This document shows, piece after piece, positions 44,170-60,913 of a stretch of DNA of 64,000 nt; position 1 is the stretch's first letter, and every line of letters begins with the position of its first letter. This DNA comes from Deltaproteobacteria bacterium (lineage in GTDB: Bacteria; Desulfobacterota; Binatia; UBA9968): assembly GCA_016210115.1 (NCBI GenBank), contig JACQUW010000180.1, forward strand, positions 1-64,000, read 5' to 3'. Both the position numbers and the translations under genes were made by a program. The notes under the pieces are model-generated. The model saw only the letters and a program-made list of their open reading frames with translations. It was not told the DNA's origin and searched no databases.

Positions 44170-44240
44170 AACGCTCTCCTCTCCCCGTCTCTTCGTCGGG
44201 CGTGTTTAGTTCGGCTTCAGTTATTTTTCTAGCAGAACGA

Positions 44241-44461: not shown

Positions 44462-44476
44462 TGGCACATCTCTTGC
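44462..44476 (+). promoter_or_regulatory. Sigma-54 promoter, full consensus (CBS gene 44650)
   Basis: TGGCACATCTCTTGC matches TGGCACR-N4-TTGC at every defined position. The leader to the ATG at 44650 is about 160 nt. Confidence 0.82.
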
Positions 44477-44649
44477 GGAATCCAGACGCAAGAAGGAACT
44501 GGCGGTCTGCTCCGATGCCCAAGTCGCGGAAAACAGGGGTCTCAATGAGTCCGCACTTTTACAGAGCTCTTGTGTGCTCCTAATCGCTGCCGCACACATT
44601 TCACGATTTCGTCGGAGCGGGCAACAAATCCAAAGACTCAGGAGGAACC

Positions 44650-45117
44650 ATGAAACTCGAAGAGATTATGGTAAAAGATGTTATTCGGATTAGCCCTGAT
44701 GACAATACTGCCGGCGCCGCTAAACGCATGAGGGAGAAAAGGGTGGGATGCCTCGTCGTGACGATAGGCCAGACAATCAAGGGCATTCTCACGGACCGGG
44801 ATCTTTTGAATTGCCTCAGCGAGGCTCACAATCCCTACCAGTGTAGGGTTTCGAACCACATGACCACACCTGTCATTGTCGAAAAGCCCGGGGAAGAACT
44901 TTTGAGAGCTGTCGAGGTGATGGCCCAAAGGAGAATAAAGCGACTACCGGTGGTTATTGATGGCAAGATCGTGGGCATCGTATCTTTCTCGGATATTTCA
45001 AGGGTCATGCATGAGCAAGCACAAAGCTTTTGGTCCACCTGGGTGTCAATAACCAGCCTGGCTAGGGCCCAGGCTCTCCATTGTCGATCACCTGAAAACC
45101 CCGCAAGCTATCACTAA
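44650..45117 (+). CDS. CBS-domain pair protein
   Basis: The 155-residue cytoplasmic protein has two CBS motifs (KRVGCLVVTIGQTIKGILTDRDL and IKRLPVVIDGKIVGIVSFSDIS) and a short C-terminal tail. It is presumably an adenylate-binding energy sensor. ATG 44650 has AGGAGG 4 bases upstream. The gene runs towards the truncated EF-P gene, whose 3' end is 35 bases away. Confidence 0.9.
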   Translation: MKLEEIMVKDVIRISPDDNTAGAAKRMREKRVGCLVVTIGQTIKGILTDRDLLNCLSEAHNPYQCRVSNHMTTPVIVEKPGEELLRAVEVMAQRRIKRLPVVIDGKIVGIVSFSDISRVMHEQAQSFWSTWVSITSLARAQALHCRSPENPASYH

Positions 45118-45151
45118 CAGTCTTTGTGAACACATCAGCCGCCAAACCCGT

Positions 45152-45601
45152 TTACGCCCACGCAACACGGCGCCTCAAAGAGACAGTAGGCTCCGTCCCT
45201 GTCACCTCGAGTTCCACGCTCGACGGCGGGCTGATTCCGATAGGCCTGGCGTCAAAAAACTCGATCTCGACGATCTGATTGGGCAGAAGATAAGGCAGGA
45301 CATCGCCAAGTTCCTCTGAGCTCAATGAAATCTGCTCATAGTTCTCCGTATCCATAAAGATACGGAGATCCCCATCCGCATAGAGATACTGCATCGTGCG
45401 AGTTTCGAGCGTGGCTTGCTCAACGCGGTCTTCTGAACGAAACTTGTGCTCTGTGCCTATTCCTGTTCGCAAATTTTTCAGCTTCGTTTGTATAAAGCCG
45501 CGTTTGTTACCCGGCGTCAAATGCTTCTTCGAAGTAACACGGTAGAGATCCCCTTCATGAACGATCAACATCCCTGCCCTAAGCTGAGTTGCATTGATCA
45601 T
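45152..45601 (-). CDS. efp: Elongation factor P family protein lacking domain III
   Basis: The 149-residue product matches EF-P domains I and II: HLTPGNKRGFIQTKLKNLRTG, with the loop whose tip residue is modified in EF-P, then the RTMQYLYADGD and ELEVTGTEP segments. Normal EF-P is 185-190 residues. Here homology stops right after ELEVTGTEP and eight odd codons precede the stop, so domain III, which contacts the 30S subunit and E-site tRNA, is absent. It lies 29 bases after nusG on the same strand. Either the gene is decaying or the short form has a specialised use. Confidence 0.85.
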   Translation of the reverse strand: MINATQLRAGMLIVHEGDLYRVTSKKHLTPGNKRGFIQTKLKNLRTGIGTEHKFRSEDRVEQATLETRTMQYLYADGDLRIFMDTENYEQISLSSEELGDVLPYLLPNQIVEIEFFDARPIGISPPSSVELEVTGTEPTVSLRRRVAWA

Positions 45602-45630
45602 GTTATATTCCTCTATCTCAGTCCCTGTCG

Positions 45631-46161
45631 TTAGGCGGCTTCGACTTGAATGAAGTCGAGGTCCACAGGAGTTGGTCGCCCAAAGACGCTGAGCGCCACA
45701 CGGACCCGTGAGCGGTTGGGATTAACTGCTTCTACCGTGCCAGTAAACTCACGGAACGGCCCATCAACAACTTTCACCCTGTCCCCGATGACAAACAGCG
45801 CTTTAGGACGGGGAGCAATATTCCCCTCTTCAACTCGTTGAATTATCTTCGCTACCTCTTCTTCAGAAATTACAGCAGGGGTCCTGGTTTGTCCGAGAAA
45901 GCCTGTCACCTTGGGAACGGAGCGAACCAGGTTCCAGGCCTCATCATTGAAAATCATTTGCACAAGGAGGTAACCGGGGAAGAGTCGGCGCTCTACCGTC
46001 TGCCTCTTTCCCCGTACGCGGTCGATTATCTTTTCTGTGGGCACAAGAATGTCTCCAAAGCCGTCCCTGTTGCCTGTCTCCCGAATCTTCCGCTCCAGGA
46101 GGGCTTTCACGCGATCCTCGAAGCCGACATAAGTCTTAATTACGTACCATTGCTTTTCCAT
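45631..46161 (-). CDS. nusG: Transcription factor NusG (stand-alone copy)
   Basis: The 176-residue protein has an NGN domain (WYVIKTYVGFEDRVKALLE ... RRLFPGYLLVQM) and a C-terminal KOW domain (IGDRVKVVDGPFREFTGTVEAV). It binds RNA polymerase and links it to Rho or ribosomes. Housekeeping nusG normally lies in secE-nusG-rplKAJL; here it is with a truncated efp in a stress region, so it may be a second, specialised copy. No sigma-54 site was found upstream. Confidence 0.93.
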   Translation of the reverse strand: MEKQWYVIKTYVGFEDRVKALLERKIRETGNRDGFGDILVPTEKIIDRVRGKRQTVERRLFPGYLLVQMIFNDEAWNLVRSVPKVTGFLGQTRTPAVISEEEVAKIIQRVEEGNIAPRPKALFVIGDRVKVVDGPFREFTGTVEAVNPNRSRVRVALSVFGRPTPVDLDFIQVEAA

Positions 46162-46732
46162 ATATCTTTTACTCCCGATGAATTTTTCCCTTTCCTTAGA
46201 ACTTGATTATTAGCGCGCTCCTGTTTACCCAGGTTGAATGCAAAGCCAGGAAGCCCGAGCTGAGAATGAGCCGGGGGATCAACTCGAAATGGTCAGTTCA
46301 GGTGCTGATACCGGACGTAATCGCCCGCGGAAATCGATGGAGGCTCTGTCGGAAGCCGGCAGCTAGAGGTGTTCTTTAGATCCGGCAAGGAAGCTCACTA
46401 ACTATTTGAAGTTTAAGGGTTTTATGACCTATTGTCAAGAGGGAGGGGGAAGCCGGCTGTTTTGGGCTTCAACCGGCATTTTAGGCTCTGGGCTTTTGAC
46501 CTGGTCTTGAATTCCTGCGTACGGCACATAGCTCTCATGATCGACAGCTTTTCGCATGGTTGACTATGACGGGGTCCGTTTCATCGCGTCTTTGGAAATG
46601 ATGGCTTTGAGCTTAGAATTTGCACGCTTCGGCTGTAAACTTTCTTTCGTTCATTGACCGGTACACGGCTTGACCTCCTGTGGCATATCCTTTGCCCCAG
46701 CTCACAGGAAGAAACCGCCTCAAGAAGGCCGC
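46162..46732. other. Divergent intergenic region nusG / glycosyltransferase
   Basis: About 570 bases without a credible ORF. It holds a sigma-54-type promoter near its right end and one inverted segment (GCCGG...CCGGC around 46450) with no T-run. Confidence 0.45.
46681..46695 (+). promoter_or_regulatory. Candidate sigma-54 promoter (glycosyltransferase operon)
   Basis: TGGCATATCCTTTGC matches TGGCAYR-N4-TTGC with one C-to-T change. It is 38 bases before ATG 46733, which supports that start over the ORF-track GTG at 46670. Confidence 0.65.
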
Positions 46733-48016
46733 ATGAATGTCTTGATGCTTACCAACACGTATTCCCCTCACGTAGGCGGCGTGGCGCGGAGCGTGGATGG
46801 GTTCGCCTCTGAGCTCCGCAAACTTGACCATCGCGTCCTTATCGCCGCCCCCGTCTTTCAGGGCTCGCCAAAGCTGGAAACAGACGTCATTCGGTTTCCG
46901 GCCGTGCAGCGTTTCAACGGCAGTGATTTTTCCCTCCCGTTACCCACTCCCGGCAAGCTGGCCAGAGCCCTCAGAAAATTCCGGCCCGATGTCGTTCATT
47001 CTCACCATCCCTTTTTGCTCGGTGACACCGCGCTCAGGGTGGCCGCAACGCGGAAAATCCCAATCGTGTTCACGCATCACACGATTTACGATAAATACAC
47101 CCATTATGTCCCAGGTGACTCACCAAAGATGAAGCGCTTTATCATTGAGCTGGTTACAGGGTACTGCAATCTGTGTGCCGCAGTCATTGCTCCGAGCCAG
47201 TCGGTTGCGCAACTGCTTCGCCTTCGCGGGGTTACAACGCGCATGGCCGTGATTCCTACCGGGGTTGACTTCGACGCCTTTGCCAAAGGAGACGGTCAGG
47301 CAACGCGGCGCAGGCTGCGGATCCCACAAGACGCTTTTGTCGTCGGGCATGTAGGCAGGCTGGCGCAGGAAAAAAACTTACATTTTCTCTCTCAAGCCGT
47401 GGCGAGCTTCCTCTTGTCTCAGGAAAACGTTCATTTTCTCGTCGTCGGGGACGGACCTTCGCGCAAAGAAATCCAAGAGATTTTTTCCGCCTTCGGTCTA
47501 AGGAATCGTTTGCGCATGATCGGCGTTGTTGATCCCAGAACGTTGCCTGCGATTTATCATGCTTTTGACGTGTTTGCTTTTTCTTCTCACAGCGAGACCC
47601 AGGGAATGGTATTGACAGAGGCTATGGCCGCCGGCGTGCCTGTCGTTGCGCTTGATGCATCGGGGGTTCGTGAGGTGGTTCGCGACCGTATTAACGGTCG
47701 CCTTCTGCCCACCGAAAATTCGCGTGAATTTGTGGGAGCACTATCCTGGATCGCGGCGCTTGAGGGTGAGGAAAAGGAGCGCTTGCGCGAAGAGGCTCGA
47801 AAGACCGCGCACGAACTTTCCATGTCTCGAACCGCTCTGATGACTCTCATGCTCTACAAATCCCTTGTGAGGAGCGAACTGAGTGATAAGGAGGCCGGAG
47901 CTGGCCCATTACGGTTAGCTCGAAGGCGCATCGCAAGGGAACGGGAAATTTTGCGCAATGTTGCCCGCGCTGTTGGCGATGCCGTGCTCTCCCTGCCGGG
48001 AAAGATGGAAGGCTAA
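46733..48016 (+). CDS. Glycosyltransferase family 4 (GT-B fold)
   Basis: This 427-residue enzyme probably works at the cytoplasmic face of the membrane. The N-terminus MNVLMLTNTYSPHVGGVARS and VVHSHHPFLLGDTAL are typical acceptor-domain features. The donor domain has VGHVGRLAQEKNLHFL, FAFSSHSETQGMVLTEAMAAGVPVVALDASGVREV with the E-x7-E motif. It resembles mannosyl/glucosyl transferases that act on lipid carriers. The start is ATG 46733; the ORF-track start overlaps the promoter. An acyltransferase gene follows after 32 bases. Confidence 0.9.
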   Translation: MNVLMLTNTYSPHVGGVARSVDGFASELRKLDHRVLIAAPVFQGSPKLETDVIRFPAVQRFNGSDFSLPLPTPGKLARALRKFRPDVVHSHHPFLLGDTALRVAATRKIPIVFTHHTIYDKYTHYVPGDSPKMKRFIIELVTGYCNLCAAVIAPSQSVAQLLRLRGVTTRMAVIPTGVDFDAFAKGDGQATRRRLRIPQDAFVVGHVGRLAQEKNLHFLSQAVASFLLSQENVHFLVVGDGPSRKEIQEIFSAFGLRNRLRMIGVVDPRTLPAIYHAFDVFAFSSHSETQGMVLTEAMAAGVPVVALDASGVREVVRDRINGRLLPTENSREFVGALSWIAALEGEEKERLREEARKTAHELSMSRTALMTLMLYKSLVRSELSDKEAGAGPLRLARRRIAREREILRNVARAVGDAVLSLPGKMEG

Positions 48017-48048
48017 GAGTCAATTCGCGTTTGTATGTCACCCGTGGC

Positions 48049-48774
48049 ATGGAGCAAAAAGGCGTGGAGAGTCTTCGGAAAAAGAGCCTGTGGGTAAGTC
48101 TTCTGGGCTACATGGGGTCCCTACTGCTTCACCTCAACGGCCTCACCTGGCGCAAGGAGCTTGTCGGAGTCAAAGAGCTCGACAGCAGGCTCACCCGTGG
48201 GGAGCGGGTCCTTCTCTGTTTCTGGCACGGCAAGTATCTATCACTGCTTTTTCTTCTTCGAGGCCGCAACGGATGTGTCTTCACCAGCCGATCCTTTCGC
48301 GGGGAGGTCATCTTCAACATCTGCCATCGTTTCGGGTATGACTGTGTGGAGATCCCTGAGTTCGAAAGCGCCCAGGCACTGAAATGCCTGCGCGATGCCA
48401 TGGGAAAGTACCAGGCCTGTGGGATCGCCATTGATGGGCCACGGGGTCCTTATCACGTGGTGAAACGAACACCCGTCCAACTGGCGTCGTCCTTTGGATT
48501 CGTAATCTTGCCTGTTTCCGTAGCTTCAAGACATAGCTTTGTTTTCCGATCTCGATGGGACCGGATGGAGCTTCCACGCCCCTTCACGAAGGTTTGCCTT
48601 GTCATAGGAGAGGCTATCAGACTCCCGGCTGCCTTGTCTTCCCGCGATACGCGCGCAAAGACACGCGAGATCCGGGAGAAGTTAGATGAAATTGAATTAC
48701 GCGCCAAAAGACAGGTGTCACGGAGTAACCTTCTAGAGGCGGGGAAAAAATTCTTGCCTCCGGGAGTCTTCTGA
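48049..48774 (+). CDS. DUF374 lysophospholipid acyltransferase family protein
   Basis: The 241-residue product has the DUF374 layout: LLCFWHGKYLSLLFLLRGRNG (HxxxD-like acceptor motif replaced by WHGK, as usual here), TSRSFRGEVI, and GIAIDGPRGPYHVVKRTPVQLA, the DGPRGP signature. Family members acylate lipid A-like or glycolipid precursors at the inner membrane. An upstream TTG at 48031 is possible. Coupled with the GT4 gene, it suggests synthesis or acylation of an envelope glycolipid. Confidence 0.85.
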   Translation: MEQKGVESLRKKSLWVSLLGYMGSLLLHLNGLTWRKELVGVKELDSRLTRGERVLLCFWHGKYLSLLFLLRGRNGCVFTSRSFRGEVIFNICHRFGYDCVEIPEFESAQALKCLRDAMGKYQACGIAIDGPRGPYHVVKRTPVQLASSFGFVILPVSVASRHSFVFRSRWDRMELPRPFTKVCLVIGEAIRLPAALSSRDTRAKTREIREKLDEIELRAKRQVSRSNLLEAGKKFLPPGVF

Positions 48775-48779
48775 TTCTG

Positions 48780-48794
48780 TGGCATGGAACGTGC
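48780..48794 (+). promoter_or_regulatory. Candidate sigma-54 promoter (Sm-like gene)
   Basis: TGGCATGGAACGTGC has TGGCA and correct 10-base spacing, with GTGC for TTGC. It starts 6 bases after the previous stop and lies 63 bases before ATG 48857. Confidence 0.5.
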
Positions 48795-48856
48795 TAAGTT
48801 CCGTGTTCAGGTGATCTACGGAAATTCCGTGTAGTCGAAAAAAAGGAGGGAAAAGT

Positions 48857-49051
48857 ATGCAAAAGGCTCTTCAAAAATTCAAAGGCAAGATGATCCGTCT
48901 TTACACTATCTCTGGGGTGGAATCGTATCTCGGCTTGCTTGAAGATGTGGATAAGGAGTGTGTCGCGCTGAAGGACGCAGTTCACGGCGAACTCATGTAC
49001 ATAGCGCTCCAGCACGTTGAGTCTTTCCATGAAACCAAGATAGGTCAATAA
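48857..49051 (+). CDS. 64-residue Sm/Hfq-like small protein
   Basis: The product is one compact beta-rich domain: KGKMIRLYTISGVESYLGLL, then LKDAVHGELMYIALQHVESFHE. The pattern (GxxVRLxTxxGxxxxGxL...hydrophobic strand...hVESh) resembles the Sm fold of Hfq and LSm proteins, with a very short helix, but the match to Hfq is not close enough to name it. It has an excellent ribosome site (AAGGAGG). It may bind RNA or serve as a protein-protein module. Glutamate dehydrogenase follows 148 bases later. Confidence 0.75.
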   Translation: MQKALQKFKGKMIRLYTISGVESYLGLLEDVDKECVALKDAVHGELMYIALQHVESFHETKIGQ

Positions 49052-49199
49052 TCTTTCAGCGGCGCGTTTCCAAAGATTTGTTCACCGACCGGTGCCGAGT
49101 CTAACAACGCGCAGCGCCGGGCGCGCCTGTGGCGCCAATGCAGAAACTCGCCGAAGGCGGAACAATGCGCAGTTCTTACTTTGTGGAGGAGCGTTTCCG

Positions 49200-50459
49200 A
49201 TGGAAAGTCTTAGTCCCAACAGCTCTGTCAACGAGATGGCACTGAGGCAACTGGATTTGGCGGCTGATAGCATCGATTTGGATCCTAATCTGCGGGCCAG
49301 GCTGAGAAAGCCGGACCACGCTTTGATCGTGAGTGTCCCTGTTCGAATGGATGACGAAAGCGTTCATGTTTTCACGGGTTACCGGGTGCAGCATAACGAC
49401 GTCTTGGGTCCGTTCAAGGGAGGCATTCGCTATTATCCCGATTTGAATCTCGGAGAAGTCTCTGCTCTCGCGATGTGGATGACCTGGAAGTGCTCTCTTG
49501 CGGGGCTCCCGTTCGGCGGCGCAAAAGGGGGCATCGCCTGCGATCCGAAGCAATTGTCAAGGAAGGAAATACAGGGGATGACCCGCCGTTACACGGCGGA
49601 ATTATTGAATTTTATCGGACCGCAAATCGATATCCCCGCGCCCGACATGGGAACTAATGAACAGGTTATGGCGTGGATTATGGACACCTATAGCCAACAC
49701 AAGGGTTATGCGGTTCCAGGAATCGTCACGGGAAAACCCGTGGCTATTGGCGGAACCTTGGGCCGCAAGGAAGCGACGGGGCGAGGGGTGGTGTATGCGC
49801 TCGAACAGGCAGTAGATAGCCTGGGCTTGGATCTGCAAAAGTGCAGCGTTTTGATTCAGGGTTTTGGTAATGTGGGATCGGTCACAGGAAGAGAGCTCGC
49901 CCGATTGGGAGTCAGCGTGGTGGGTGTGAGCGACCGGTCAGGCGGGATCTACAACCCGAGGGGTCTTCCGGTCGAGGCTGTGGCCAGGTTCAAAGAACAG
50001 AATAATAAACTCCTCGAATTTCCGGAGGGAGAAAAGATCGGCGGAAAAGAGTTTCTGGAGCTGCCCTGCGACATACTCATCCCGAGCGCATCGGAGATGC
50101 AGATCACACAAGAGAACGCAGGTAAGTTGAAATGCCGCATTATTGCCGAGGGAGCCAATGGCCCGACAACGCCGGAGGCCGACAAGATTCTGGCCGACAT
50201 GGGAGTCTTGGTGATTCCCGATATCCTGGCTAATGCTGGCGGAGTCATCGTTTCCTATTTCGAGTGGGTTCAGGACCTGCAAAATTTCTTTTGGACGGAA
50301 GACGAGATCAACAAGCAACTTAAGGAAATGATGACGCGCAGCTTCCGGAGCGTCCTTGAAGCGAGTCGAAAAGAGCGCGCGAGTCTAAGACTTGCGGCGC
50401 TTATGATCGCTATCCAACGAGTGGGCCGGGCAATGCTTCTAAGAGGACTTTACGCCTAG
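49200..50459 (+). CDS. gdhA: Glutamate dehydrogenase (Glu/Leu/Phe/Val dehydrogenase family)
   Basis: This 419-residue cytoplasmic enzyme interconverts glutamate and 2-oxoglutarate with NAD(P). It has FKGGIRYYPDL, the catalytic Lys region LPFGGAKGGIACDP, the second Lys/Asp region PAPDMGTNEQVMAW and the dinucleotide motif QGFGNVG. Length fits the hexameric small-subunit class. ATG 49200 has GGAGGAG 9 bases upstream; the ORF-track start is 36 codons earlier. No sigma-54 site was seen directly upstream. Confidence 0.95.
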   Translation: MESLSPNSSVNEMALRQLDLAADSIDLDPNLRARLRKPDHALIVSVPVRMDDESVHVFTGYRVQHNDVLGPFKGGIRYYPDLNLGEVSALAMWMTWKCSLAGLPFGGAKGGIACDPKQLSRKEIQGMTRRYTAELLNFIGPQIDIPAPDMGTNEQVMAWIMDTYSQHKGYAVPGIVTGKPVAIGGTLGRKEATGRGVVYALEQAVDSLGLDLQKCSVLIQGFGNVGSVTGRELARLGVSVVGVSDRSGGIYNPRGLPVEAVARFKEQNNKLLEFPEGEKIGGKEFLELPCDILIPSASEMQITQENAGKLKCRIIAEGANGPTTPEADKILADMGVLVIPDILANAGGVIVSYFEWVQDLQNFFWTEDEINKQLKEMMTRSFRSVLEASRKERASLRLAALMIAIQRVGRAMLLRGLYA

Positions 50460-50495
50460 ACTCATGAGAGGCAGTGGCAGATAAAACTCCCCGAA

Positions 50496-50523
50496 GGGCG
50501 GGGCCGGCATATAGGCCCCGCCC
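50496..50523. terminator. Bidirectional terminator hairpin
   Basis: GGGCGGGGCC-GGCATATA-GGCCCCGCCC is a perfect 10-bp stem between the convergent gdhA and CBS genes. On the minus strand a TTTT follows after a few bases. Confidence 0.7.
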
Positions 50524-50548
50524 CACTGCTTCTTCGACGACCCAAGCC

Positions 50549-50977
50549 CTACGCGTTCCCTTGAGGGAAGCCTTCGGAAACGGCCTTTCCGATCTCCGAC
50601 ATCTCGTCTCCGAGCAGCGCTATAAGATCATCGAGGGTCACGATTCCGAGTGTTTTGTCAATGCCGTTTACAATCGGGACCCGCCGCACATGATGACTAT
50701 GCATCAGTGCCGTGAGATCACGCAGGTCTTTCTCGACCGATATTCGCACCGGATTGCGGGTCATCACATCGCGGACGCTGGTCATTTGGGGATCTCTTTT
50801 CTCTCCCGCCACCTTCAACGCGATATCCCGGTCCGTTAGGATTCCGCACAATTTCCCATCATCTTCGGCAACAATGCACCCTACATTGTTGTCTTTCATC
50901 ATCCGGCAGCCCTCCATAACGCTTGCGTCGGGGGAAATCGTTACGACACGCTTCCGACAAAAATCTTGCAATGACAT
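50549..50977 (-). CDS. CBS-domain pair protein
   Basis: The 142-residue cytoplasmic protein has two CBS motifs (NNVGCIVAEDDGKLCGILTDRDIA and VRRVPIVNGIDKTLGIVTLDDL) and no additional domain. It has AGGAGG upstream. It follows the BON gene on the same strand after about 130 bases and is probably cotranscribed. Role: binding of adenine nucleotides in the stress response. Confidence 0.92.
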   Translation of the reverse strand: MSLQDFCRKRVVTISPDASVMEGCRMMKDNNVGCIVAEDDGKLCGILTDRDIALKVAGEKRDPQMTSVRDVMTRNPVRISVEKDLRDLTALMHSHHVRRVPIVNGIDKTLGIVTLDDLIALLGDEMSEIGKAVSEGFPQGNA

Positions 50978-51104
50978 AGGTCACCTCCTGTTTTGCTGGG
51001 CCAATTTTTTTCAGTAACGTCAGCTCACATCAGTCATACGCCTCAACAACCTTTGGGTTCTGCAGCAAACTTGATCCGGGAAAATACCTGTCCCACGGCA
51101 ACTC

Positions 51105-51830
51105 CTACCGCTGAACTTGAATCCGGTTGATTACCCGATCCACGCCGAAAACGTACCACGTATCTCTTTCAGCCATCTGCCGCATCGTCTCATGCGTGGT
51201 AAAGCCTTCGAGGGTCACGACAAAATCTTTCGAGCTCACGCGGATCTTATCGGCGTTGACAAACGGGTCTTTTTCCAACACGAGACGCACCGCATCCGTC
51301 AAATCTTCGTCGCATTCCTGCTCAGTGGGGACCTCCTCGAGACCATTCACCACATCGCGGGTTCCGGGCACCCACCATGCTAAGACGCCCGCCAGCCGTT
51401 TGTGAGCCAGACTCGGCACCTGGCCGTTGAGCATCACCACACCGTCGGATACCTCCACCACAATCATTCCAGCAACTTCCGGCGGAGCCTCGGTGATTGT
51501 CTGCGCACGACCGTCAGCTGCGTCCTGTATAAAACAATTTTCGAACGCAGGTTCCTCGAGCAGCACCCTGCATACGTGATCCCCGATTTCCGCGTCTCCC
51601 ATAGGCTCCGCGGGAACTACCCTCAGCCGATCGATAATGCGCCCGATACCTCGAGCACTCCCGGCGAGCTCCAGCGCGACTTTTTTCACAGAGATGTCCT
51701 CGACTTCCCCTTCCATAACCAGGTCGCCGTCCTGGAAAAAAAGATGAATGGGATAACGATGAAGATTGATTCGAATATCTCTTTCCAGGAGCGCGCGAAG
51801 GTGTTTCAAGACTTCCTTTTCGGGATTCAT
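51105..51830 (-). CDS. BON-domain protein
   Basis: The 241-residue product contains three BON-like repeats (an alpha-beta fold of about 60 residues), for example DGVVMLNGQVPSLAHKRLAGVLAWWVPGTRDVVNGLEEV and SSKDFVVTLEGFTTHETMRQMAERDTWYVFGVDRVINRI. No signal peptide is seen, so it is cytoplasmic. BON domains bind phospholipid or polysaccharide in exported proteins and are of unclear use in cytoplasmic ones. ATG 51830 is used, not the TTG at 51857. Confidence 0.82.
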   Translation of the reverse strand: MNPEKEVLKHLRALLERDIRINLHRYPIHLFFQDGDLVMEGEVEDISVKKVALELAGSARGIGRIIDRLRVVPAEPMGDAEIGDHVCRVLLEEPAFENCFIQDAADGRAQTITEAPPEVAGMIVVEVSDGVVMLNGQVPSLAHKRLAGVLAWWVPGTRDVVNGLEEVPTEQECDEDLTDAVRLVLEKDPFVNADKIRVSSKDFVVTLEGFTTHETMRQMAERDTWYVFGVDRVINRIQVQR

Positions 51831-51868
51831 CTTGTTGCCTTGCTTCAGGGGGACCAATTATTGGGAGT

Positions 51869-51883
51869 GCAGAACTTATGCCA
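51869..51883 (-). promoter_or_regulatory. Candidate sigma-54 promoter (BON-CBS operon)
   Basis: TGGCATAAGTTCTGC keeps TGGCA and the spacing, with CTGC for TTGC. It is 39 bases before ATG 51830. Confidence 0.5.
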
Positions 51884-52080
51884 AACTGGGCAAATACGGA
51901 AAGTGGCCCTACAGCAATCCTCCGACGCCGACCTTTTGTCACAGATGAAAAAAGAGCGCGCCCTTTTCTTTGCGAGATTGGGAAATGTATGGAGATGATC
52001 AGCGTATGGGATCTGGCCGGTCAGCTTTGCCGGCTGATCTCACTTGAAGAAACGTGAGTCACGAATGCGTGAGGACTTTT

Positions 52081-54522
52081 TCATTTTGGTAAATTCCCTT
52101 GCCAACCTTTTTCTTTCCTCTTGGCCCAGGTGGTTACAATCCGCGCCATCTCCTCCAGGCGCCGCGCAACCCGACCATACAAGGTGTTCTCAGGATACTG
52201 TCCGTCAGCTTCGCGCTTCCCCACCGGCATCCCTGTGAGTAGTTCCAGTGCCTCCTCTACCGTATGAACGGCGTACACAGTGAAATTGCCCGCTTCGACT
52301 GCCTCAACCACTTCCCGGCGTAAGGCCAGATGTTTGATATTGCGGGCTGGGATGATGACACCTTGATCTCCCTTGAGCCCGTGTTTCTTGCAGGACTCAA
52401 AGAACCCTTCGATCTTTTCATTGACTCCACCGATAGGCTGCACCTCGCCCAATTGGTTCACGGAACCTGTAACCGCCAGGTACTGGCGGAGCGGAGCATT
52501 CGCCAGGCTAGAGAGCACTGCAGCGAGTTCCGCGACGGCGGCACTATCTCCTTCCACCTCGGAGTAAGTCTGCTCAAACGTCAGCGTGGCACTGAGGGCA
52601 AACGGATGGGCACCCGCGAACTTTCCTGCCAGGAACCCGGCCAATATCATGACACCCTTACTGTGAATATTTCCGGCAAGTTCGGCCTCGCGCTGGATAT
52701 CAATGACGCCCTTGGTTCCGATGAATGTTCTCGCCGTGATCCGGCAGGGACGGCCGAACCCATATTCTCCAAGCAAATGGAGCGAGAGGCCGTTGACTTG
52801 GCCGACCGCTTCACCCTCAAGATCCACCATTAGAGTCCCTTCCTTGATCTCATCCTGGATCCACTGCTCAGGGAGATTGGAACGGTATCTTTTGTTGGCG
52901 ATCGCGGTTTCAACATCACTCCCCGAGACCAGAGTGCAACCTCCTGATTGCGCCAAGAAACTTGCTTCACGGACCACGTCTCCCAACAAACCCAACCGCA
53001 GCGACAGCCGATCCTGACGCTCGGCCAGGCGGCAACCATACCGGATCAATTCGGCGACCGCATCCGATCCGAAGTGCGGCAGGCCTTCATCCCGGCAGAG
53101 GCTGGCTACAAACCGAGCGTAGAGCCTTTCTTGGCGCTCATCCCGAGTAACATCCAGATCGAATTCCGCTTTGACCTTGAAGATCTTTTGAAAGTCCTCT
53201 TCGTAGGCCTGGAGAAGATGAAAAAGGACCGGGGGACCAATCAGGATCACCTTGACATCGACGGGTACCGGCTGTGGCCTGAGGCCGATCGTCGAGAAAC
53301 CGTAGAATTCGGCAGGATCTTCGATTTTGACCTCTCGTGTTCTAATCACGCGCTTGAGGGCATCCCAGGCAAAAGGTTGGCGCAGCAAGTCCAGGGCATT
53401 CAAAATGAGGTAGCCGCCGCTCGCTTGCAGGAAAGCCCCGGCTCTTATTTCGGTAAAATCGGTATAGACGACGCCCATGTGGGCCTTGCGCTCGATTTTG
53501 CCGACCAGGTTGGCGTAAGTCGGATGTGATTCATCCACTACCGGGGCCCCGCCATCGGCCTGGTGCTCCAGGATTAGATTGACCTGGTAACGCGTCAGAT
53601 CAAGGTGGCGTCCCATCAATTCCAGGCCCGGAAGTTCCGGAGCAGGAGCTTCTCGACGCAGGAAGTCCTTATAGTTCGCAAGAATGTCTTCACGGACCTT
53701 CTCCAGATAGTCGAGCACCTGAGGCATGGCTTCGTAAGATTTTCGTAGGTTTTCGAATGGCCGCTCCAGTACAAGTTGCACGACCTCGCGGTCCATCTCC
53801 CGTACACGCTGCCCTGCTTCATGGTCCAGGGCGTGCAAACGAACCTGGAACTCACGGATCTCGCCGTCCAGAGCTTTCCTCTTTTCGTTCATTTCGTCTC
53901 GTTCTGCCCTGGACAGTGCGGCCAGTTCTTTCTCTGTCACAGGACGGCCGGCTTTTAGAGGAACCAACGCCAGCCCCAGGTGTGTCTCTTTGAAGCCGAA
54001 TCCGTGCCCCCGTCCGAGCTCCGTCAGTTCTTCAAAAAGCGCCTGCTTCCTGGCTACCGTCTCTTCCTCTATCTTCGCCTTGGCCTCGAGATACTTGGTG
54101 CTCTCAAAAACCCTTTGAATGTCTCGCCGCAGGTTTTGAATTAACGCGGCCATCGCCTCCCTAAAGGAACGGCCCTGGCCGGCGGGGAACGCGAGGCAGT
54201 ACGGCCTGGAAGGGTCCTGAAAGTTGTTAACATAACACCAATCCGGAGGCGTGGGGGCTCCATGGGCCGCACGCTTGGCCATTTCTTTAACCATCGACCA
54301 CTTTCCCATGCCGATAGGCCCGCATACGTAAATATTGAACCCGGCGCTTTTCACGTGGAGGCCGAACTCCAGCGCCTTTACCGCCCGCTCTTGCCCGATG
54401 GCCTCCTCCAGCGGGGTCAAATCACTCGTGACTGAGTAGCCGAGTTGGGCTGCCTCGATCATCGGCGACAATACCGCAGCCGGCAGTTTAAAGTTATCTG
54501 ACATCTTCGGTTGAACTTCCAT
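52081..54522 (-). CDS. Lon-like ATP-dependent protease (copy 2)
   Basis: The 813-residue protein is a paralogue of the product of 39314-41797. Its Lon protease domain has Ser 660 in EGDSAAVAEL and Lys 703 in NEKIEGFF. The ATPase region keeps GPIGMGKW, a P-loop with Lys but without the usual Thr/Ser. The middle region is a long helical insertion (residues about 100-290, Glu/Arg-rich). Substrates are probably damaged proteins. The start overlaps the stop of the DUF4136 lipoprotein gene as TAATG, so translation is coupled. Confidence 0.92.
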   Translation of the reverse strand: MEVQPKMSDNFKLPAAVLSPMIEAAQLGYSVTSDLTPLEEAIGQERAVKALEFGLHVKSAGFNIYVCGPIGMGKWSMVKEMAKRAAHGAPTPPDWCYVNNFQDPSRPYCLAFPAGQGRSFREAMAALIQNLRRDIQRVFESTKYLEAKAKIEEETVARKQALFEELTELGRGHGFGFKETHLGLALVPLKAGRPVTEKELAALSRAERDEMNEKRKALDGEIREFQVRLHALDHEAGQRVREMDREVVQLVLERPFENLRKSYEAMPQVLDYLEKVREDILANYKDFLRREAPAPELPGLELMGRHLDLTRYQVNLILEHQADGGAPVVDESHPTYANLVGKIERKAHMGVVYTDFTEIRAGAFLQASGGYLILNALDLLRQPFAWDALKRVIRTREVKIEDPAEFYGFSTIGLRPQPVPVDVKVILIGPPVLFHLLQAYEEDFQKIFKVKAEFDLDVTRDERQERLYARFVASLCRDEGLPHFGSDAVAELIRYGCRLAERQDRLSLRLGLLGDVVREASFLAQSGGCTLVSGSDVETAIANKRYRSNLPEQWIQDEIKEGTLMVDLEGEAVGQVNGLSLHLLGEYGFGRPCRITARTFIGTKGVIDIQREAELAGNIHSKGVMILAGFLAGKFAGAHPFALSATLTFEQTYSEVEGDSAAVAELAAVLSSLANAPLRQYLAVTGSVNQLGEVQPIGGVNEKIEGFFESCKKHGLKGDQGVIIPARNIKHLALRREVVEAVEAGNFTVYAVHTVEEALELLTGMPVGKREADGQYPENTLYGRVARRLEEMARIVTTWAKRKEKGWQGNLPK

Positions 54523-55019
54523 TATTGTTTCGGAGGAAATCTTTCTAGCATCTGCTTGATCGCCGCCGGAATTTGCCGTTGCGCCCGCTCGCGGTCGCCC
54601 ACCACATCAGAGGCGCAGCCACGCCATACCGCCTGATTTGATCTCGAGTCAACAAATTCTATGAGCAAAGTTCCTTCCAGGTAAGTAAAACGACGCACAC
54701 ATTCGCCTGGCATCAAGGTTCCGGGACCGAGCAGTTGCCAGACGGCTTTCTCTTCAACGGCCGCATGATAAGCAACGGAAAAATCTGGCTCTCGTCCGTT
54801 CGCCTTCTGATATCCCTTTTTCAGGAGCTCCTGTTCGAGTGCCGTCCGCACCAGTTTGTCGACCCATTCGGGTGGAGGCTTCGGTTGGTCGTGGGCTCCG
54901 ATCCAACCAAATGTTCGATAGCGTCCGAAATCGATATTTCTGTCATAATTGGTTTGCACGGACACCGTAGCGCACCCGAAGAGCATTAGGGCTAAAGCAA
55001 GCGACATCACGCCTTTCAT
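54522..55019 (-). CDS. DUF4136 lipoprotein
   Basis: The 165-residue product has a lipoprotein signal (MKGVMSLALALMLFGCATV) and a DUF4136 domain: NYDRNIDFGRYRTFGW, ALEQELLKKGYQKA and the C-terminal region EFVDSRSNQAVWRGCA. These outer-membrane lipoproteins have no known activity. The ATG at 55019 (M9 of the track ORF) is chosen because it starts the signal peptide. It precedes the Lon-like gene with a 1-base overlap, an odd pairing of an envelope lipoprotein with a cytoplasmic protease. Confidence 0.85.
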   Translation of the reverse strand: MKGVMSLALALMLFGCATVSVQTNYDRNIDFGRYRTFGWIGAHDQPKPPPEWVDKLVRTALEQELLKKGYQKANGREPDFSVAYHAAVEEKAVWQLLGPGTLMPGECVRRFTYLEGTLLIEFVDSRSNQAVWRGCASDVVGDRERAQRQIPAAIKQMLERFPPKQ

Positions 55020-55102
55020 TCGCCCTACCGAATCGTAAACCATCCCGGTTCCCCCGAATTAAGCCTGTATCCTGTTTGAGGCTCGCCTGATATGTCAGGC
55101 TC

Positions 55103-55117
55103 GCAACACTCATACCA
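55103..55117 (-). promoter_or_regulatory. Candidate sigma-54 promoter (DUF4136-lon operon)
   Basis: TGGTATGAGTGTTGC has TGG, correct spacing and a full TTGC, with two mismatches in the CAC part. It is 84 bases before ATG 55019. Confidence 0.55.
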
Positions 55118-55334
55118 AAGAGCTTACCCCCAGCTAACCGAAGGTTTTCAGCGAAGCTTACGAGGGAATAGTCATCATCTGGAACGATCACCCTTGACCA
55201 TGAAAACCGCTGCCCGCTCTCCGAGCCCGCGCAATGGGCGGCGTTTTTCACATTTGCGATTCTCCGCAATCTAATTTCGCGAGTCTCGAAAAATATGGCT
55301 GGCACAATCATGAAATAAACTGGACAATCCCTGC

Positions 55335-55349
55335 TGGCATGCGCATTGC
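55335..55349 (+). promoter_or_regulatory. Candidate sigma-54 promoter (radical SAM operon)
   Basis: TGGCATGCGCATTGC, followed by T, has one mismatch from TGGCACG-N4-TTGCT. The -12 ends 28 bases before ATG 55377. Confidence 0.72.
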
Positions 55350-55376
55350 TCATAACTCTTTAGGATTAAACCAAGA

Positions 55377-56456
55377 ATGAAGGAAGCTCTATTATATGAA
55401 AAGGCCGATGGTCGGGCAGTGATCTGTAACTTGTGTGCCCACCGATGCTTTATCCCCCCCGGAAGGGTCGGCATCTGCCACGTCAGGGAAAACCGAGCGG
55501 GAGTTTTGTACACGCTGGTTTATGATCGCGTTATCTCACTCAACATTGATCCAATAGAAAAGAAACCTTTTTTTCACTTTCTGCCCGGCACTCGCTCATA
55601 TTCTATCGCCACAGTGGGCTGTAACTTCCATTGCCGATTCTGCCAAAACTGGGAGATCTCGCAGATGGCTGGAGACCGTAACGGCCTGATCCTCGGCGAG
55701 AAAACTTCGCCTGAAGAAATTGTCCGCGGGGCGTTGCAGACGGGCTGCAAAACGATCGCCTACACCTATACGGAGCCGACGATTTTCTTCGAGCTCGCGT
55801 ACGATGCGGCGAGACTTGCGGTAAACGAGGGCTTAAGAAACCTGTTCGTGACCAATGGCTACATAACGCCGGAAGCGCTCAGAATGATCCAACCGTACCT
55901 GCACGGGGCCAATCTCGACCTGAAAGGATTCGATGACAGGCGCTACCGCCGCGTTTGTGGCGCTAAACTGCAGCCGGTTCTCGACACCATACGTCTCATG
56001 AAAGAGTTGGGAATCTGGGTGGAAGTAACCACGCTCGTAGTGCCGGGCCATAACGACTCGGACCAGGAGCTGCGACAGATCGCTATTTTCCTGAGAGAGG
56101 TTGGAGCGGAGATTCCCTGGCATCTCAGCGCCTTCTTTCCAGCATACAAGATGTTAGATGTGGAGCCGACAGACCGGCAAACGCTCATGCGCGCCTGGGC
56201 AATTGGCAAGGAAGCGGGTCTCCGCCACGTTTATATTGGGAACCTCGCGGACAACGTGCATGAAGATACGACCTGCTATCAATGTGGAAACAGGTTGGTA
56301 CAGCGTTTCGGCTTTACAGTAAGGCGTAACCTGCTTGACGATGGGCGGTGCCCCTTCTGCCACGCATCAGTTGAAGGGGTGTGGAAAAATGAATTCTTGA
56401 AGGCCGAAGCTGGAGTTACACACTTCAGCCCAAATCTTAAGGAGGTAATCCCATGA
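55377..56456 (+). CDS. AmmeMemoRadiSam-system radical SAM enzyme
   Basis: This 359-residue radical SAM protein has the [4Fe-4S] motif CNFHCRFC near residue 83-90, an N-terminal Cys-rich region (CNLCAHRCFIPPGRVGICHV) and a C-terminal zinc-finger-like CxxC pair (CYQCGNRL ... CPFCHA). This layout is that of the PflA-like member of the AmmeMemoRadiSam system. The usual partners (AMMECR1 and MEMO homologues) are not in the window. A DUF2267 gene overlaps its stop by 4 bases. Confidence 0.88.
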   Translation: MKEALLYEKADGRAVICNLCAHRCFIPPGRVGICHVRENRAGVLYTLVYDRVISLNIDPIEKKPFFHFLPGTRSYSIATVGCNFHCRFCQNWEISQMAGDRNGLILGEKTSPEEIVRGALQTGCKTIAYTYTEPTIFFELAYDAARLAVNEGLRNLFVTNGYITPEALRMIQPYLHGANLDLKGFDDRRYRRVCGAKLQPVLDTIRLMKELGIWVEVTTLVVPGHNDSDQELRQIAIFLREVGAEIPWHLSAFFPAYKMLDVEPTDRQTLMRAWAIGKEAGLRHVYIGNLADNVHEDTTCYQCGNRLVQRFGFTVRRNLLDDGRCPFCHASVEGVWKNEFLKAEAGVTHFSPNLKEVIP

Positions 56457-56881
56457 ACGAAGCTGGGTTAGAGGTGATCGACACCACAATCCATAAGACT
56501 CGAGCGTGGCTTAATGATTTGATGAACGAGCTTGAGTGGGAGGGCGATCCGCACAAGGCCTATCTGGGGCTACGCGCGGTTCTTCATGCGCTCCGGGACC
56601 GGCTAACGATTGAAGAGGCTGTGCAGCTCGGCGCCCAGCTCCCCATGCTCATCCGTGGCTTCTATTACGAGGGATGGAAACTCACGGGGAAGCCGGTCAA
56701 AGAGCGTCATAAAGAGCAATTTTTGGATCACATCAGAAAGGCCTACAAAGATGACGTGACGGTCGACCCGGAACGAGTCGCGCGCGCCGTATTTAAGGTG
56801 TTGGCCAGGCGCACCAGCAAAGGGGAGATCGAGGACGTCAAATATTTGCTGCCCGCATCGGTTCGCAAGCTCTGGCCTTGA
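56453..56881 (+). CDS. DUF2267 protein
   Basis: The 142-residue helical protein matches the DUF2267 pattern: TRAWLNDLMNELEWEGDPHKAYLGLRAVLHALRDRLTIEEAVQLGAQLPMLIRGFYYEGW (first helical repeat), followed by a second half with VARAVFKVLARR and LPASVRKLWP. Function is unknown; such genes are often in stress clusters. It overlaps the radical SAM gene as ATGA, so they are coupled. Confidence 0.9.
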   Translation: MNEAGLEVIDTTIHKTRAWLNDLMNELEWEGDPHKAYLGLRAVLHALRDRLTIEEAVQLGAQLPMLIRGFYYEGWKLTGKPVKERHKEQFLDHIRKAYKDDVTVDPERVARAVFKVLARRTSKGEIEDVKYLLPASVRKLWP

Positions 56882-57129
56882 GGCGAGAGCTGTTATCGCG
56901 GAACGTTAGGCAAACGGTCCGTTGAACCAGCATACCCGCCATCTGCGCCAGCTCAAAGAATTGTTGTGCATCGACGGAAACAAAATTCGTGCGAATGATT
57001 CTGCCGAGGATTGTTTGAGTCCGCGCCTCAGGTTTGTCAGTCGTGCGCCACGGCGAAAATTGTTCCAAAGGATGCGCAGTTCGACCGGACGATACTCGTC
57101 TCACGCCATTTCCTTTATTGGTACAGATC

Positions 57130-58095
57130 ATGCTCAAAGATCAAACCGGGAAGGCATGGATTCTGGCAGCAGGGAGGCGCGGAAAAGTGAGAAGTTTTTT
57201 GCTGGGTCTCTGGCGGCTTGCAGACCCGAAAATCTCCCTCGCATCGTTTTCTGGAATGTTTCTTGGCGCATGTATTGCCGCGCGAGACGGAGCGCTCGCA
57301 GTAGACTGGCTGGTGCTCACGGTCATCGGCATCTTTTGCATAGAAGTTGCCAAGAATGCTTCGGGCGAGATCTTCGACTTCGATTCCGGGACCGATTTGG
57401 CCGTCGCTGCCGAGGACCGAAGCCCGTTCTCAGGCGGGAAACGGGTTCTTGTCGATAATCTGCTCACCCGTCATCAGACGATTGCGATTGCGGCTGTAAG
57501 TTACCTGCTTGGCATTGGCGCAGGGCTGGTGATTTTTGGTTACCGGGAGCCGCTCGTTTTCTGGCTGGGAGTGGGAGGAGTCGGTTGCGCCTTTTTCTAC
57601 CAGGCTCCTCCGTTTCGGCTTTCTTATAGGGGCTTGGGCGAGCTGGCCGTCGCGCTTTGTTACGGGCCGCTCATAACCGCCGGCACCTATCTCGTGCAGC
57701 GGGGAACAGTAACTCCGGAGGTTGGTCTTCGGTCAGGCGTGCTGGGGCTTCTCATCGCAGCTTTCCTATTGATCAACGAGTTCCCCGATTACCGCGCAGA
57801 TCTGGCATCGGGAAGGCTCAATCTGGTAGTAAGGCTCGGGCCGCGTAAAGCCGCACGAGTCTTTGTCGCCATCCTGTGCTTTTCCGGAGCAGCCCTGGCT
57901 ATCGCGCCATTCGCAGGAGTGCCAATCGGAGTATGGCTTGGCGCGTTGTTTTTGATTCCCGCCTCATTCGCCGCCAGGACCTTGCTGCGCCATCCTGAAG
58001 TCACGCCGCGCGTGATCCCTGCCCAGGCGCTTACGCTTTTAGCGTTCGTTCTCTACGCGCTTGGCTCAGGCATCGGACTCATTCTCTGGGAATAG
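57130..58095 (+). CDS. UbiA-family prenyltransferase
   Basis: This 321-residue inner-membrane protein has eight or nine helices. The two Asp-rich motifs that bind Mg2+ and the prenyl diphosphate are NASGEIFDFDSGTD and NEFPDYRADLASGR. The sequence is closest in style to MenA-like 1,4-dihydroxynaphthoate prenyltransferases, but the aromatic acceptor cannot be told. The ORF-track start (57034) precedes the likely ATG 57130; neither has a clear ribosome site. Confidence 0.85.
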   Translation: MLKDQTGKAWILAAGRRGKVRSFLLGLWRLADPKISLASFSGMFLGACIAARDGALAVDWLVLTVIGIFCIEVAKNASGEIFDFDSGTDLAVAAEDRSPFSGGKRVLVDNLLTRHQTIAIAAVSYLLGIGAGLVIFGYREPLVFWLGVGGVGCAFFYQAPPFRLSYRGLGELAVALCYGPLITAGTYLVQRGTVTPEVGLRSGVLGLLIAAFLLINEFPDYRADLASGRLNLVVRLGPRKAARVFVAILCFSGAALAIAPFAGVPIGVWLGALFLIPASFAARTLLRHPEVTPRVIPAQALTLLAFVLYALGSGIGLILWE

Positions 58096-58242
58096 AGCTT
58101 TACGACCCTGTTATATCCTGTTGCCTCGCGGCCTGCGCTAAATTCTCTAAATAGCGACAAAGAAGCCGGAAGATGTTGCAAGAATGCAAAGTCCTCCGCA
58201 GAGGCATGCCTCCAATCTCGTTACTATTCGGCTCTTGGAAAT

Positions 58243-58257
58243 TGGCACGTTTTATGC
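58243..58257 (+). promoter_or_regulatory. Candidate sigma-54 promoter (Usp gene 58309)
   Basis: TGGCACGTTTTATGC matches TGGCACG fully and has ATGC for TTGC, with the 10-base spacing. It is 52 bases before ATG 58309. Confidence 0.7.
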
Positions 58258-58308
58258 GGAAAAACCCTACGCGCTTTCACTTCGCAATTCATGATGCGGA
58301 GAAATTCA

Positions 58309-58815
58309 ATGGAGAGGATCAGAACAATTCTCGCTCCCACAGATCTCTCGGAAAGGTCAGTAGAGGGAGTGCGATATGCCCTCAATCTGGCAAAGGCTTT
58401 GGGAGCGGAAGTTACGGCTTATTATGTCGTGCCCTACCATGGGTTTCAGAACCGGCAAAGAGGAGAAGACGAAACCAGGCCGTTCGAGCATGCATCTCCT
58501 TACGCTGAAAGCCTTCTCAGGCGCCATCAGTTCGCTCTCGCGCATTTCTTGAGCACCCACTTCGCTGATTTGACGCCGCGGGTCACGATCCGGGAAAAAG
58601 TCGAGCCTGGGGTCCCTGACAAAAAGATCGTCGACTGGGCGAAAAAAGAGGCTTCGGATTTAATTGTCATCTCCTCGCATAGAATCGCCTCTGTCGCAGA
58701 AAAGGCCGGTCAAAGCGTGGCTGAAAAAGTGATCCGTAATGCCCCCTGCCCCGTCCTCTTCATTCGTCGCGTTCCTGACAAAGAGGTAGTTAATGAGATC
58801 GGCGTAAACCCTTAA
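58309..58815 (+). CDS. Universal stress protein, single domain, altered nucleotide loop
   Basis: The 168-residue cytoplasmic Usp-fold protein starts MERIRTILAPTDLSERSVEGVRYALNLA. In place of the ATP-binding G-2x-G-9x-G(S/T) loop it has SSHRIASVAEKAGQSVAEKVI, which lacks the first two glycines. It may bind another nucleotide or none. ATG 58309 has GGAGA at 6 bases; the ORF-track start is 6 codons earlier. A conserved-looking helical protein gene follows after 13 bases. Confidence 0.85.
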   Translation: MERIRTILAPTDLSERSVEGVRYALNLAKALGAEVTAYYVVPYHGFQNRQRGEDETRPFEHASPYAESLLRRHQFALAHFLSTHFADLTPRVTIREKVEPGVPDKKIVDWAKKEASDLIVISSHRIASVAEKAGQSVAEKVIRNAPCPVLFIRRVPDKEVVNEIGVNP

Positions 58816-58828
58816 CCGGAATTCATTT

Positions 58829-59221
58829 ATGTACTACACCACGATAAATCATACAGACGAGCGCTCCGATTTTGGAATGGATAAAGATCTTCTCGAGATC
58901 CTGGGCAGGAGAACCGCCCGGGAGGGGGAGGAAGAGCTTATGCTGGCGATCCTGGAAGACGCCGTAGCTTGCTTCCAAAAGTATGTGCGCGAACAAGGCG
59001 GCAAAGGAAAGGCTCTGTTCCGAGACGCGGAGAACTGGATTTTGAGCAAAAACAGCGACTGGCTTTTTTCATTTGAGAATATCTGCGAGGTCTTAGGCTT
59101 TGACCCGAAATACCTCCGTCAAGGGCTCATGCGCTGGAAAGAAAAGGCGCGCCGGAAAGGATTCGCGGCACACAAACAGAGCCCGAAACCTGAACAGTTT
59201 AAAGGGCTCCACAAAAACTAA
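58829..59221 (+). CDS. Helical protein of unknown function
   Basis: The 130-residue product is mainly helical: EEELMLAILEDAVACFQKYV, then LFRDAENWILSKNSDWLFSFENICEVLGFDPKYLRQGLMRWKEKA. The Phe/Trp-rich middle with FSFENICEVLGFDPKYLR looks like a family-specific signature of environmental proteobacteria, but I cannot assign a function. It is probably cotranscribed with the Usp gene. Confidence 0.7.
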   Translation: MYYTTINHTDERSDFGMDKDLLEILGRRTAREGEEELMLAILEDAVACFQKYVREQGGKGKALFRDAENWILSKNSDWLFSFENICEVLGFDPKYLRQGLMRWKEKARRKGFAAHKQSPKPEQFKGLHKN

Positions 59222-59284
59222 ACACCGCTGACAGCTTGAAAGTCTCTTCGGCCGGACTCATCGCGCTCGACGGGAAAGCTTCGG

Positions 59285-60112
59285 CTAAGCAGACGGCCAG
59301 TAAACCATCATCAGCACGCCGGCCCGGCGGACGCATTCTCCGGCGACGCTGCCGAAGATTGCCCGTTCCAATCCGCCACGGGCATGAGAAGTCATGGCCA
59401 GCAGAAGATCCTGGCGCCCCTCGACGTAGCTGCACAGGCTTTCTGCGGGCGCGCCGTGAAGAACCTCCCAATCAACCTCAATGCCGTACTTTTTCCTGCT
59501 CTCCTCAGCCACATTGCGAAGATAGGAAGATTCCAGAATGTCGCGCTTCAATTCCCGTGGAATCTGGGGTTGGCTCCCTTCTTCCGGCAGAACCTGCACG
59601 AGTTGAAGTCTCGTCTTCAAAAGCTTCGCAATCTCTCCAGCAAAAGGCAGAATCTTCGCAGAGTAATCGGACCCGTCCAGCGGCGCAACCACAGTGGAGA
59701 TAGTGAGAGTCTTATCGGCGACTCCCGCGGAAGCGGGCGCTCGTGGTCGATAAAGGAAGACGGGTCTGTCTGCGCCACGGATCACGCTCAGCGCCACGCT
59801 CCCAATTGCCGCCTGTAATAACCCGCCTCGCCCATGCGTTGTGATCGCCGGTAGCGCCGCAGGCCGCTCCCGCAATTCCTCCAGTACGGCTGCGGGCACA
59901 TTTTCAAAACCTCTCTTTAACTTGCCTTCGACGCCCAGGTGCCTGGCGAGCCCCTGCACATATCTCTCAGCCGCCGCAAACTGCCGCTCAACTTCCAAGA
60001 CGCGAAGCAGCGTGAGGGCCGCCCCCGTAGCGCCTACGATTCCTCGCGCGTATGGGAGGATCTGCTCCGCAAATAATGATCCGTCAAGACAGACAATAAT
60101 CCGATCAATCAT
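59285..60112 (-). CDS. Tandem-domain universal stress protein
   Basis: The 275-residue protein has two Usp folds. The first carries TTHGRGGLLQAAIGSVAL (near G-2x-G-9x-G-S), the second TSHARGGLERAIFGSVAG. Both keep most ATP-loop residues. It lies 33 bases after the hibernation-factor gene on the same strand and so shares its promoter. It is a likely cytoplasmic ATP-binding stress protein. Confidence 0.9.
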   Translation of the reverse strand: MIDRIIVCLDGSLFAEQILPYARGIVGATGAALTLLRVLEVERQFAAAERYVQGLARHLGVEGKLKRGFENVPAAVLEELRERPAALPAITTHGRGGLLQAAIGSVALSVIRGADRPVFLYRPRAPASAGVADKTLTISTVVAPLDGSDYSAKILPFAGEIAKLLKTRLQLVQVLPEEGSQPQIPRELKRDILESSYLRNVAEESRKKYGIEVDWEVLHGAPAESLCSYVEGRQDLLLAMTSHARGGLERAIFGSVAGECVRRAGVLMMVYWPSA

Positions 60113-60145
60113 ATGTGGCCGCTGAGAATCGCAGCTTCTTCGGAT

Positions 60146-60778
60146 TCAGCCGTGGTGTTTGCCAATAACCCTCACGCTGCTCGCCTGAGGTCCCTTTTCG
60201 CCCTGCTCTTCGGTAAATTGCACCTCCATATTTTCCTTCATTCTGTCAAAATCCTCGTTGAGTACGCTGTTCTCGTGAAAATAGATCTCCCGCCCGTCAG
60301 CCGTCTCTAAAAAACCAAAGCCTTCATTTGACAAGAGTTTGCTCACTCGAGCGTGGGCCATAGGCTCATGGATTTTCAGCTGGCCTCTTTGTCGCCGCGC
60401 ATAATCCTGCAATTTTCGCCGGGCGGCGTCAAAGGCGTCTCGAATGGCCACGTAAATATCTTCGTGCGCATCGGGCTTGCTCGGCTGGCGATCAACCGCT
60501 AAATCAGCATCGGGCTCCTTGAGTCGATGCAGCGGCGTCCCTATGATGCGCTTCGGCGCACGATTCACGACCAGTTCCCCACCGGGCACAGTCATGTCGA
60601 TGCGCACACGAAACACCTTCCCTTTTCGATGGTAGCGGTGTGGCGCCTCGAGCATGACCCTGCAGCTCATGATTTTCTCATAGAAGGTGTCCAGCTTGAC
60701 CGCCTTGTCTCGGATGCTGCTCTCAATAGCTTCGGAAGGCGGCATGTTACGAAAGGTTATCTTGATTGGAATATTAAT
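60146..60778 (-). CDS. HPF/RaiA-type ribosome hibernation factor with cold-shock domain, AUU start
   Basis: The 210-residue protein joins an N-terminal S30AE/HPF domain (NIPIKITFRNMPPSEAIES ... EDIYVAIRDAFDAARRKLQDY) to a C-terminal cold-shock domain (GFGFLETADGREIYFHENSV). It would park ribosomes in an inactive state. The ORF track starts at ATG 60745, in the middle of the conserved N-terminus. The reading frame stays open upstream to a TAG at 60797-60799 and contains no ATG, GTG, TTG or CTG. An AGGAGG lies 8 bases before an ATT at 60778, and that codon aligns with the family's initiator Met (family MxIPLQITFR). I therefore assign ATT (AUU) as start. Confidence 0.88.
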   Translation of the reverse strand: MNIPIKITFRNMPPSEAIESSIRDKAVKLDTFYEKIMSCRVMLEAPHRYHRKGKVFRVRIDMTVPGGELVVNRAPKRIIGTPLHRLKEPDADLAVDRQPSKPDAHEDIYVAIRDAFDAARRKLQDYARRQRGQLKIHEPMAHARVSKLLSNEGFGFLETADGREIYFHENSVLNEDFDRMKENMEVQFTEEQGEKGPQASSVRVIGKHHG

Positions 60779-60898
60779 GGCTGTTCCCTCCTCTTCCTAT
60801 AATTTTCTTCCTTGGTCAGTAGAGCGGCGGTGATTTTATGGCAGCAATTCAACTTCACAATTGAGACGACTGCGGCTTCGATCCGTCAGGAAGTCGGA

Positions 60899-60913
60899 GC
60901 ACATTCCATGCCA
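60899..60913 (-). promoter_or_regulatory. Candidate sigma-54 promoter (hibernation factor operon)
   Basis: TGGCATGGAATGTGC, followed by T, has TGGCA, the 10-base spacing and GTGC for TTGC. It lies about 120 bases before the AUU start. Confidence 0.55.

Follow-up and report, generated by a model that had tools for sequence, protein, structure and literature searches.

The window, the whole 64,000-nucleotide stretch of DNA that was analysed, carries near its end a minus-strand gene for a ribosome hibernation factor of 210 amino acids, initiated at ATT (60146..60778). The protein consists of an N-terminal HPF/S30AE domain (PF02482, Ribosomal_S30AE; 60569..60766, minus strand; Pfam, E 4e-14) and a C-terminal cold-shock domain (PF00313; 60167..60349, minus strand; Pfam, E 2e-12), a combination that defines the HPFcold architecture. 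The closest known member is HPFcold of Coxiella burnetii (CBU_0020, PDB 9T0Z), which has the same PF02482-PF00313 arrangement, although the linker is longer in the protein described here; a profile built from 25 relatives aligns with the Coxiella protein over its full length (E 1e-60). In Coxiella, this factor occupies the mRNA path of the 30S subunit while its cold-shock domain wraps the anti-Shine-Dalgarno (anti-SD) sequence (PMC13392368), and no mention of its start codon was found in that report. The predicted fold (mean pLDDT 76, with an unreliable linker at residues 75-102) contains strand beta-1 (residues 5-10) followed by a helix (residues 16-29), and its best structural matches are HPF/RaiA and cold-shock-protein structures. 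The score against the NCBIfam yfiA equivalog lies below the cut-off, so the protein is not filed as a classical YfiA. On these sequence comparisons, the gene encodes an HPF plus cold-shock-domain (HPF-CSD, HPFcold-type) ribosome hibernation factor. The source genome also contains a second HPF-CSD gene (L002/L003, G000:C236), which starts with ATG and belongs to a separate clade common to G009-G011, as well as an HPF-like gene near rpoN (L006).

Upstream of the gene lies a sigma-54-type -24/-12 element, TGGCATGGAATGTGCT (60898..60913, minus strand), which is conserved in orthologues. Of 15 family orthologues, 12 carry a TGGCAC/T element with GG-N10-GC spacing 35-120 nt 5' of the start. They are of both ATT and ATG types and include all four ATT genes, and the genome background would give about 0.01 elements per 150-nt region (about 1%); as the orthologues share descent, a binomial estimate exaggerates the significance. 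The sigma-54 gene rpoN is present in all 25 family genomes, and the upstream GG-N10-GC element together with a genomic rpoN marks this as a predicted sigma-54-dependent promoter. Just 3' on the same strand is a tandem universal stress protein (Usp) gene (59285..60112, minus strand), homologues of which stand on the same strand near orthologues L007-L011 and L013. Neither this gene, nor the promoter element, nor the cold-shock-domain type of the protein had figured in the sequence-only reading of the locus.

Similar elements are frequent in the surroundings. Between positions 43294 and 60913 of the window, about 12 sigma-54-type -24/-12 elements occur in 18 kb, compared with about 2.5 expected, and some lie just 5' of genes for a Usp (58291), a radical SAM protein (55377), a Band-7 protein (44169) and a nucleotidyltransferase (43305). 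Two LonB/LonC-like AAA proteases are encoded on the minus strand of the same region (39314-41797 and 52081-54522), and Lon-like genes also adjoin sigma-54-type elements in these 18 kb. The stretch from 43294 to 60913 is likely a sigma-54 stress or survival island.

Start codon and initiation signals

The reading frame is closed upstream by an in-frame TAG (60797..60799, minus strand), 3' of which the open frame (60796-60146, minus strand) translates as EEEGTA-INIPIKITFRNM... The minus-strand start region reads TAG GAA GAG GAG GGA ACA GCC (ATT) AAT ATT CCA ATC AAG ATA ACC TTT CGT AAC ATG, with the proposed initiation codon in brackets (60776..60778). Between the TAG and this ATT no ATG, GTG, TTG or CTG occurs in frame, and no ATG, GTG or TTG occurs in any frame from -20 to +33 around it. 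A perfect Shine-Dalgarno (SD) sequence, AGGAGG (60787..60792, minus strand), is located 8 nt 5' of the ATT, with an anti-SD duplex of -13.0 kcal/mol. The conserved N-terminus of the family, M-x-I-P-L-x-I-T-F-R-N-M, aligns exactly to the ATT, which takes the place of the ATG of most orthologues, and, counted from the ATT, the HPF profile match opens at residue 5, ahead of the first in-frame ATG at codon 12 (60743..60745, minus strand). The start is thus placed at 60778 and the coding sequence at 60778-60146. Each of these observations (the extended N-terminus, the missing canonical start, the AGGAGG at 8 bases and the ATT at the family's initiator position) had been put forward from the sequence alone, and each was borne out.

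Calculated with a generic anti-SD sequence, the SD:anti-SD duplexes of the four known ATT genes range from -11.3 to -13.1 kcal/mol before the ATT and from -1.0 to -2.1 kcal/mol before the internal ATG, the latter limit belonging to the gene in the window. In ATG orthologues the range is -8.5 to -18.1 kcal/mol; because the two ranges overlap, the SDs of ATT genes are not exceptionally strong. Local folding gave no consistent structure that would sequester the SD, and the leader contained no match to a known RNA element near the Rfam threshold.

The genomic background was taken from about 585 kb with 498 ORF frames, a sample of about 7% of the source assembly (8.35 Mb, 431 contigs, 99.2% complete, 8.9% contamination). 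Within it, the hibernation gene is the sole gene-like frame that combines a strong SD and a correctly spaced ATT, ATC, ATA or CTG with the lack of any canonical start between the stop and +11 codons; one further frame with these properties (L207) proved spurious. Clear enrichment behind strong SDs was seen for ATG only, and a genome-wide habit of ATT starts was rejected, as these 585 kb give no sign of it. The internal isoleucine codons of the four ATT genes favour ATC over ATT by two to one (30 vs 15).

The ATT start among relatives

An ATT at the aligned initiator is found in four assemblies: the source genome (genus g1), G014 and G007 (both g8) and G017 (g11). The four cases therefore represent three genera, and in each gene an SD is positioned 7-8 nt upstream. 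In two of the other ATT genes, L007 and L008, no canonical in-frame start precedes the ATT within the codons examined. In the third, L014, a TTG and a CTG directly follow the upstream stop; they lie 5' of the sigma-54-type element, are presumably not in the mRNA, and were rejected as starts. Other orthologues of the same family carry ATG at the aligned initiator (L009-L013, L015, L017, L018 and L188), and in other class members and wider relatives the start is ATG, GTG or TTG wherever it can be assigned. In L021, the ATG is located 12 codons further upstream.

In a maximum-likelihood tree of HPF sequences from which the initiator residue had been excluded, the ATT genes and L016 form one clade with moderate support (85/72), and a single change from ATG to ATT accounts for the distribution when L016 and L021 are left out of the count. 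As the sister clade carries ATG, ATT is a derived, clade-specific state. Protein identity among the ATT genes is 60-79%, whereas identity at fourfold third positions is only 0.30-0.49, near saturation, which means that ATT has outlived near-saturating neutral change and that there was ample time for single-base reversion to ATG. The tree and codon comparisons thus describe one replacement of AUG by AUU in a common ancestor of three or more genera, followed by retention. Whether orthologues keep the ATT, or whether sister genomes would show ATG and the source a sequencing error, had been posed as a decisive check: ATT is kept in three other assemblies of the family, which excludes the error, and ATG is indeed present in the sister clade.

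In one member of the clade, L016 (G019:C215, genus g8), the region reaching from the promoter to codon 5 is gone, including the promoter element, the SD and the ATT. The deletion fuses codon 6 to sequence that lies upstream, near TTGGCAC, and may reflect decay or perhaps misassembly, so that either the gene is dispensable there or the G019 assembly is faulty.

No canonical start fits the conserved N-terminus, the SD is correctly spaced and the arrangement is kept in relatives, as is expected of non-AUG-start genes. By every available sequence test, AUU is almost certainly the real start of the HPF-CSD gene.

infC and the case for IF3 control

The initiation factor IF3 represses its own gene through a non-AUG start, which is ATT in E. 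coli and ATC in Streptomyces (PMC5472188), and AUA or AUU starts reduce initiation in Staphylococcus aureus (PMC13009471). In the family of uncultured bacteria studied here, infC was located in 24 of 25 genomes (L128-L151) and begins with ATA in 13 and ATC in 11 of them, 21 starts being assigned automatically and three (L133, L148 and L150) read by eye. No canonical start lies close to the conserved infC N-terminus in any of the 24, and the codon follows an SD of the form GGAGGTG or a close variant; in the source genome (L133, G000:C423), AGAAGGGGGTGGAGT precedes ATA. In all 24 genomes, a standard gene caller would place the infC start wrongly or miss it. With ATA or ATC throughout the family, IF3 autocontrol through the infC start is probable in these bacteria, as in E. 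coli and Streptomyces. IF3 destabilises initiation complexes on such codons, and the AUU of the hibernation gene should therefore be IF3-sensitive too.

The reading we favour, with a probability of roughly two in three, is IF3-responsive control of the hibernation factor through its AUU start. In growing cells, IF3 would reject the AUU and little protein would be made from the mRNA; once less IF3 is free or ribosome-bound, for example as growth stops, the AUU would be accepted and the factor made. The sigma-54-type promoter would act as a second, transcriptional gate. Work in E. coli reports that HPF is freed from ribosomes by IF3, and that less IF3 is bound to ribosomes as cells enter stationary phase (PMC8778775). 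The AUU would give this existing antagonism a further layer, at the level of synthesis, and would make the change between initiating and hibernating ribosomes sharper; this suggests that IF3 and HPF are opposed in action and, as we infer, also in synthesis. The original proposal of IF3 control is thus plausible and is strengthened by the infC starts, the repression of non-AUG starts by IF3 and the reported release of HPF by IF3. Its companion claim, that the factor rises when ribosomes stall, found no specific support. A more elaborate version, to which we give somewhat less than an even chance, holds that IF3 directly gates its ribosome-binding antagonist via AUU, so that the two exclude one another from the 30S subunit in the manner of a switch, and that the factor may also limit itself through its cold-shock domain. 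This domain would cover the anti-SD, which the factor's own mRNA, with its weak start and dependence on the SD, needs for translation; synthesis of the factor may be restricted in this way. Against the favoured reading, orthologues of the same family with ATG manage without AUU control, the ATT cases number only four, two of them from one genus, and the clade that unites them has moderate support. The loss of SD and ATT in L016 and the presence of the second HPF-CSD gene and the HPF-like gene in the source genome also count against it.

The strongest competitor accepts AUU as the true start and lets it set a low, fixed level of expression with no meaningful response to IF3. The AUU starts of pcnB (PMC1780047) and cvfC1 (PMC13009471) can simply limit yield, and the ATG sister genes do without AUU; however, the same genomes keep a non-AUG infC, so translation from AUU should track IF3 activity by the same chemistry, and a fixed level appears unlikely. 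Decay of the gene, with ATT as a defective start that precedes loss, would fit the missing promoter-to-start region of L016 and the second HPF-CSD copy of the source genome, but it is very improbable given an intact frame, a protein conserved where silent sites are near saturation, and the SD, spacing and promoter element retained in all four ATT genes. Hardly any weight, slightly less again, falls to initiation at codon 12, the first canonical start in the frame, or at another downstream Met, with the upstream homology as a vestige: none of the four genomes has an SD before the internal ATG, which lies past beta-1 and as a start would delete that strand from the HPF fold, and codons 1-11 are conserved as protein despite near-saturated silent sites. 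A misread ATG in a metagenome-type assembly with its many contigs and estimated contamination can practically be dismissed, since identical ATT and SD recur in three other independent assemblies.

Relation to known non-AUG starts

The closest parallel is infC itself, which occurs in the same genomes and shares with the hibernation gene an AUN non-AUG start behind a strong SD and a role tied to ribosome state. The two differ in that the repressor controls its own gene in infC, whereas IF3 would control a functional antagonist here. The sigR gene of Streptomyces, which has an IF3-repressed GTC start (PMC5472188), is likewise a stress gene with a strong SD and a clade-conserved rare start that is ATG in outer relatives; unlike the hibernation gene, it encodes a sigma factor, uses a different codon and has an IF3 effect shown by experiment, while the effect proposed here is deduced from sequence. 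In Staphylococcus, cvfC1 (AUU) and ccpN (AUA) also combine conserved AUU or AUA starts with strong SDs (PMC13009471), but they encode unrelated proteins, their starts were mapped by Ribo-Ret and their SD motifs are extended.

The mechanism is of a known kind, represented by the IF3-gated starts of infC and sigR, and the hibernation factor is apparently unreported as a target: in a search of the open-access literature, no hibernation factor described as having an IF3-gated or AUU-type start came up. Since gene callers assume ATG, GTG or TTG, they put such starts in the wrong place, and most IF3-gated genes have probably gone unrecognised. If the favoured reading is true, the choice to initiate or to hibernate would be tied to IF3 availability in one step.
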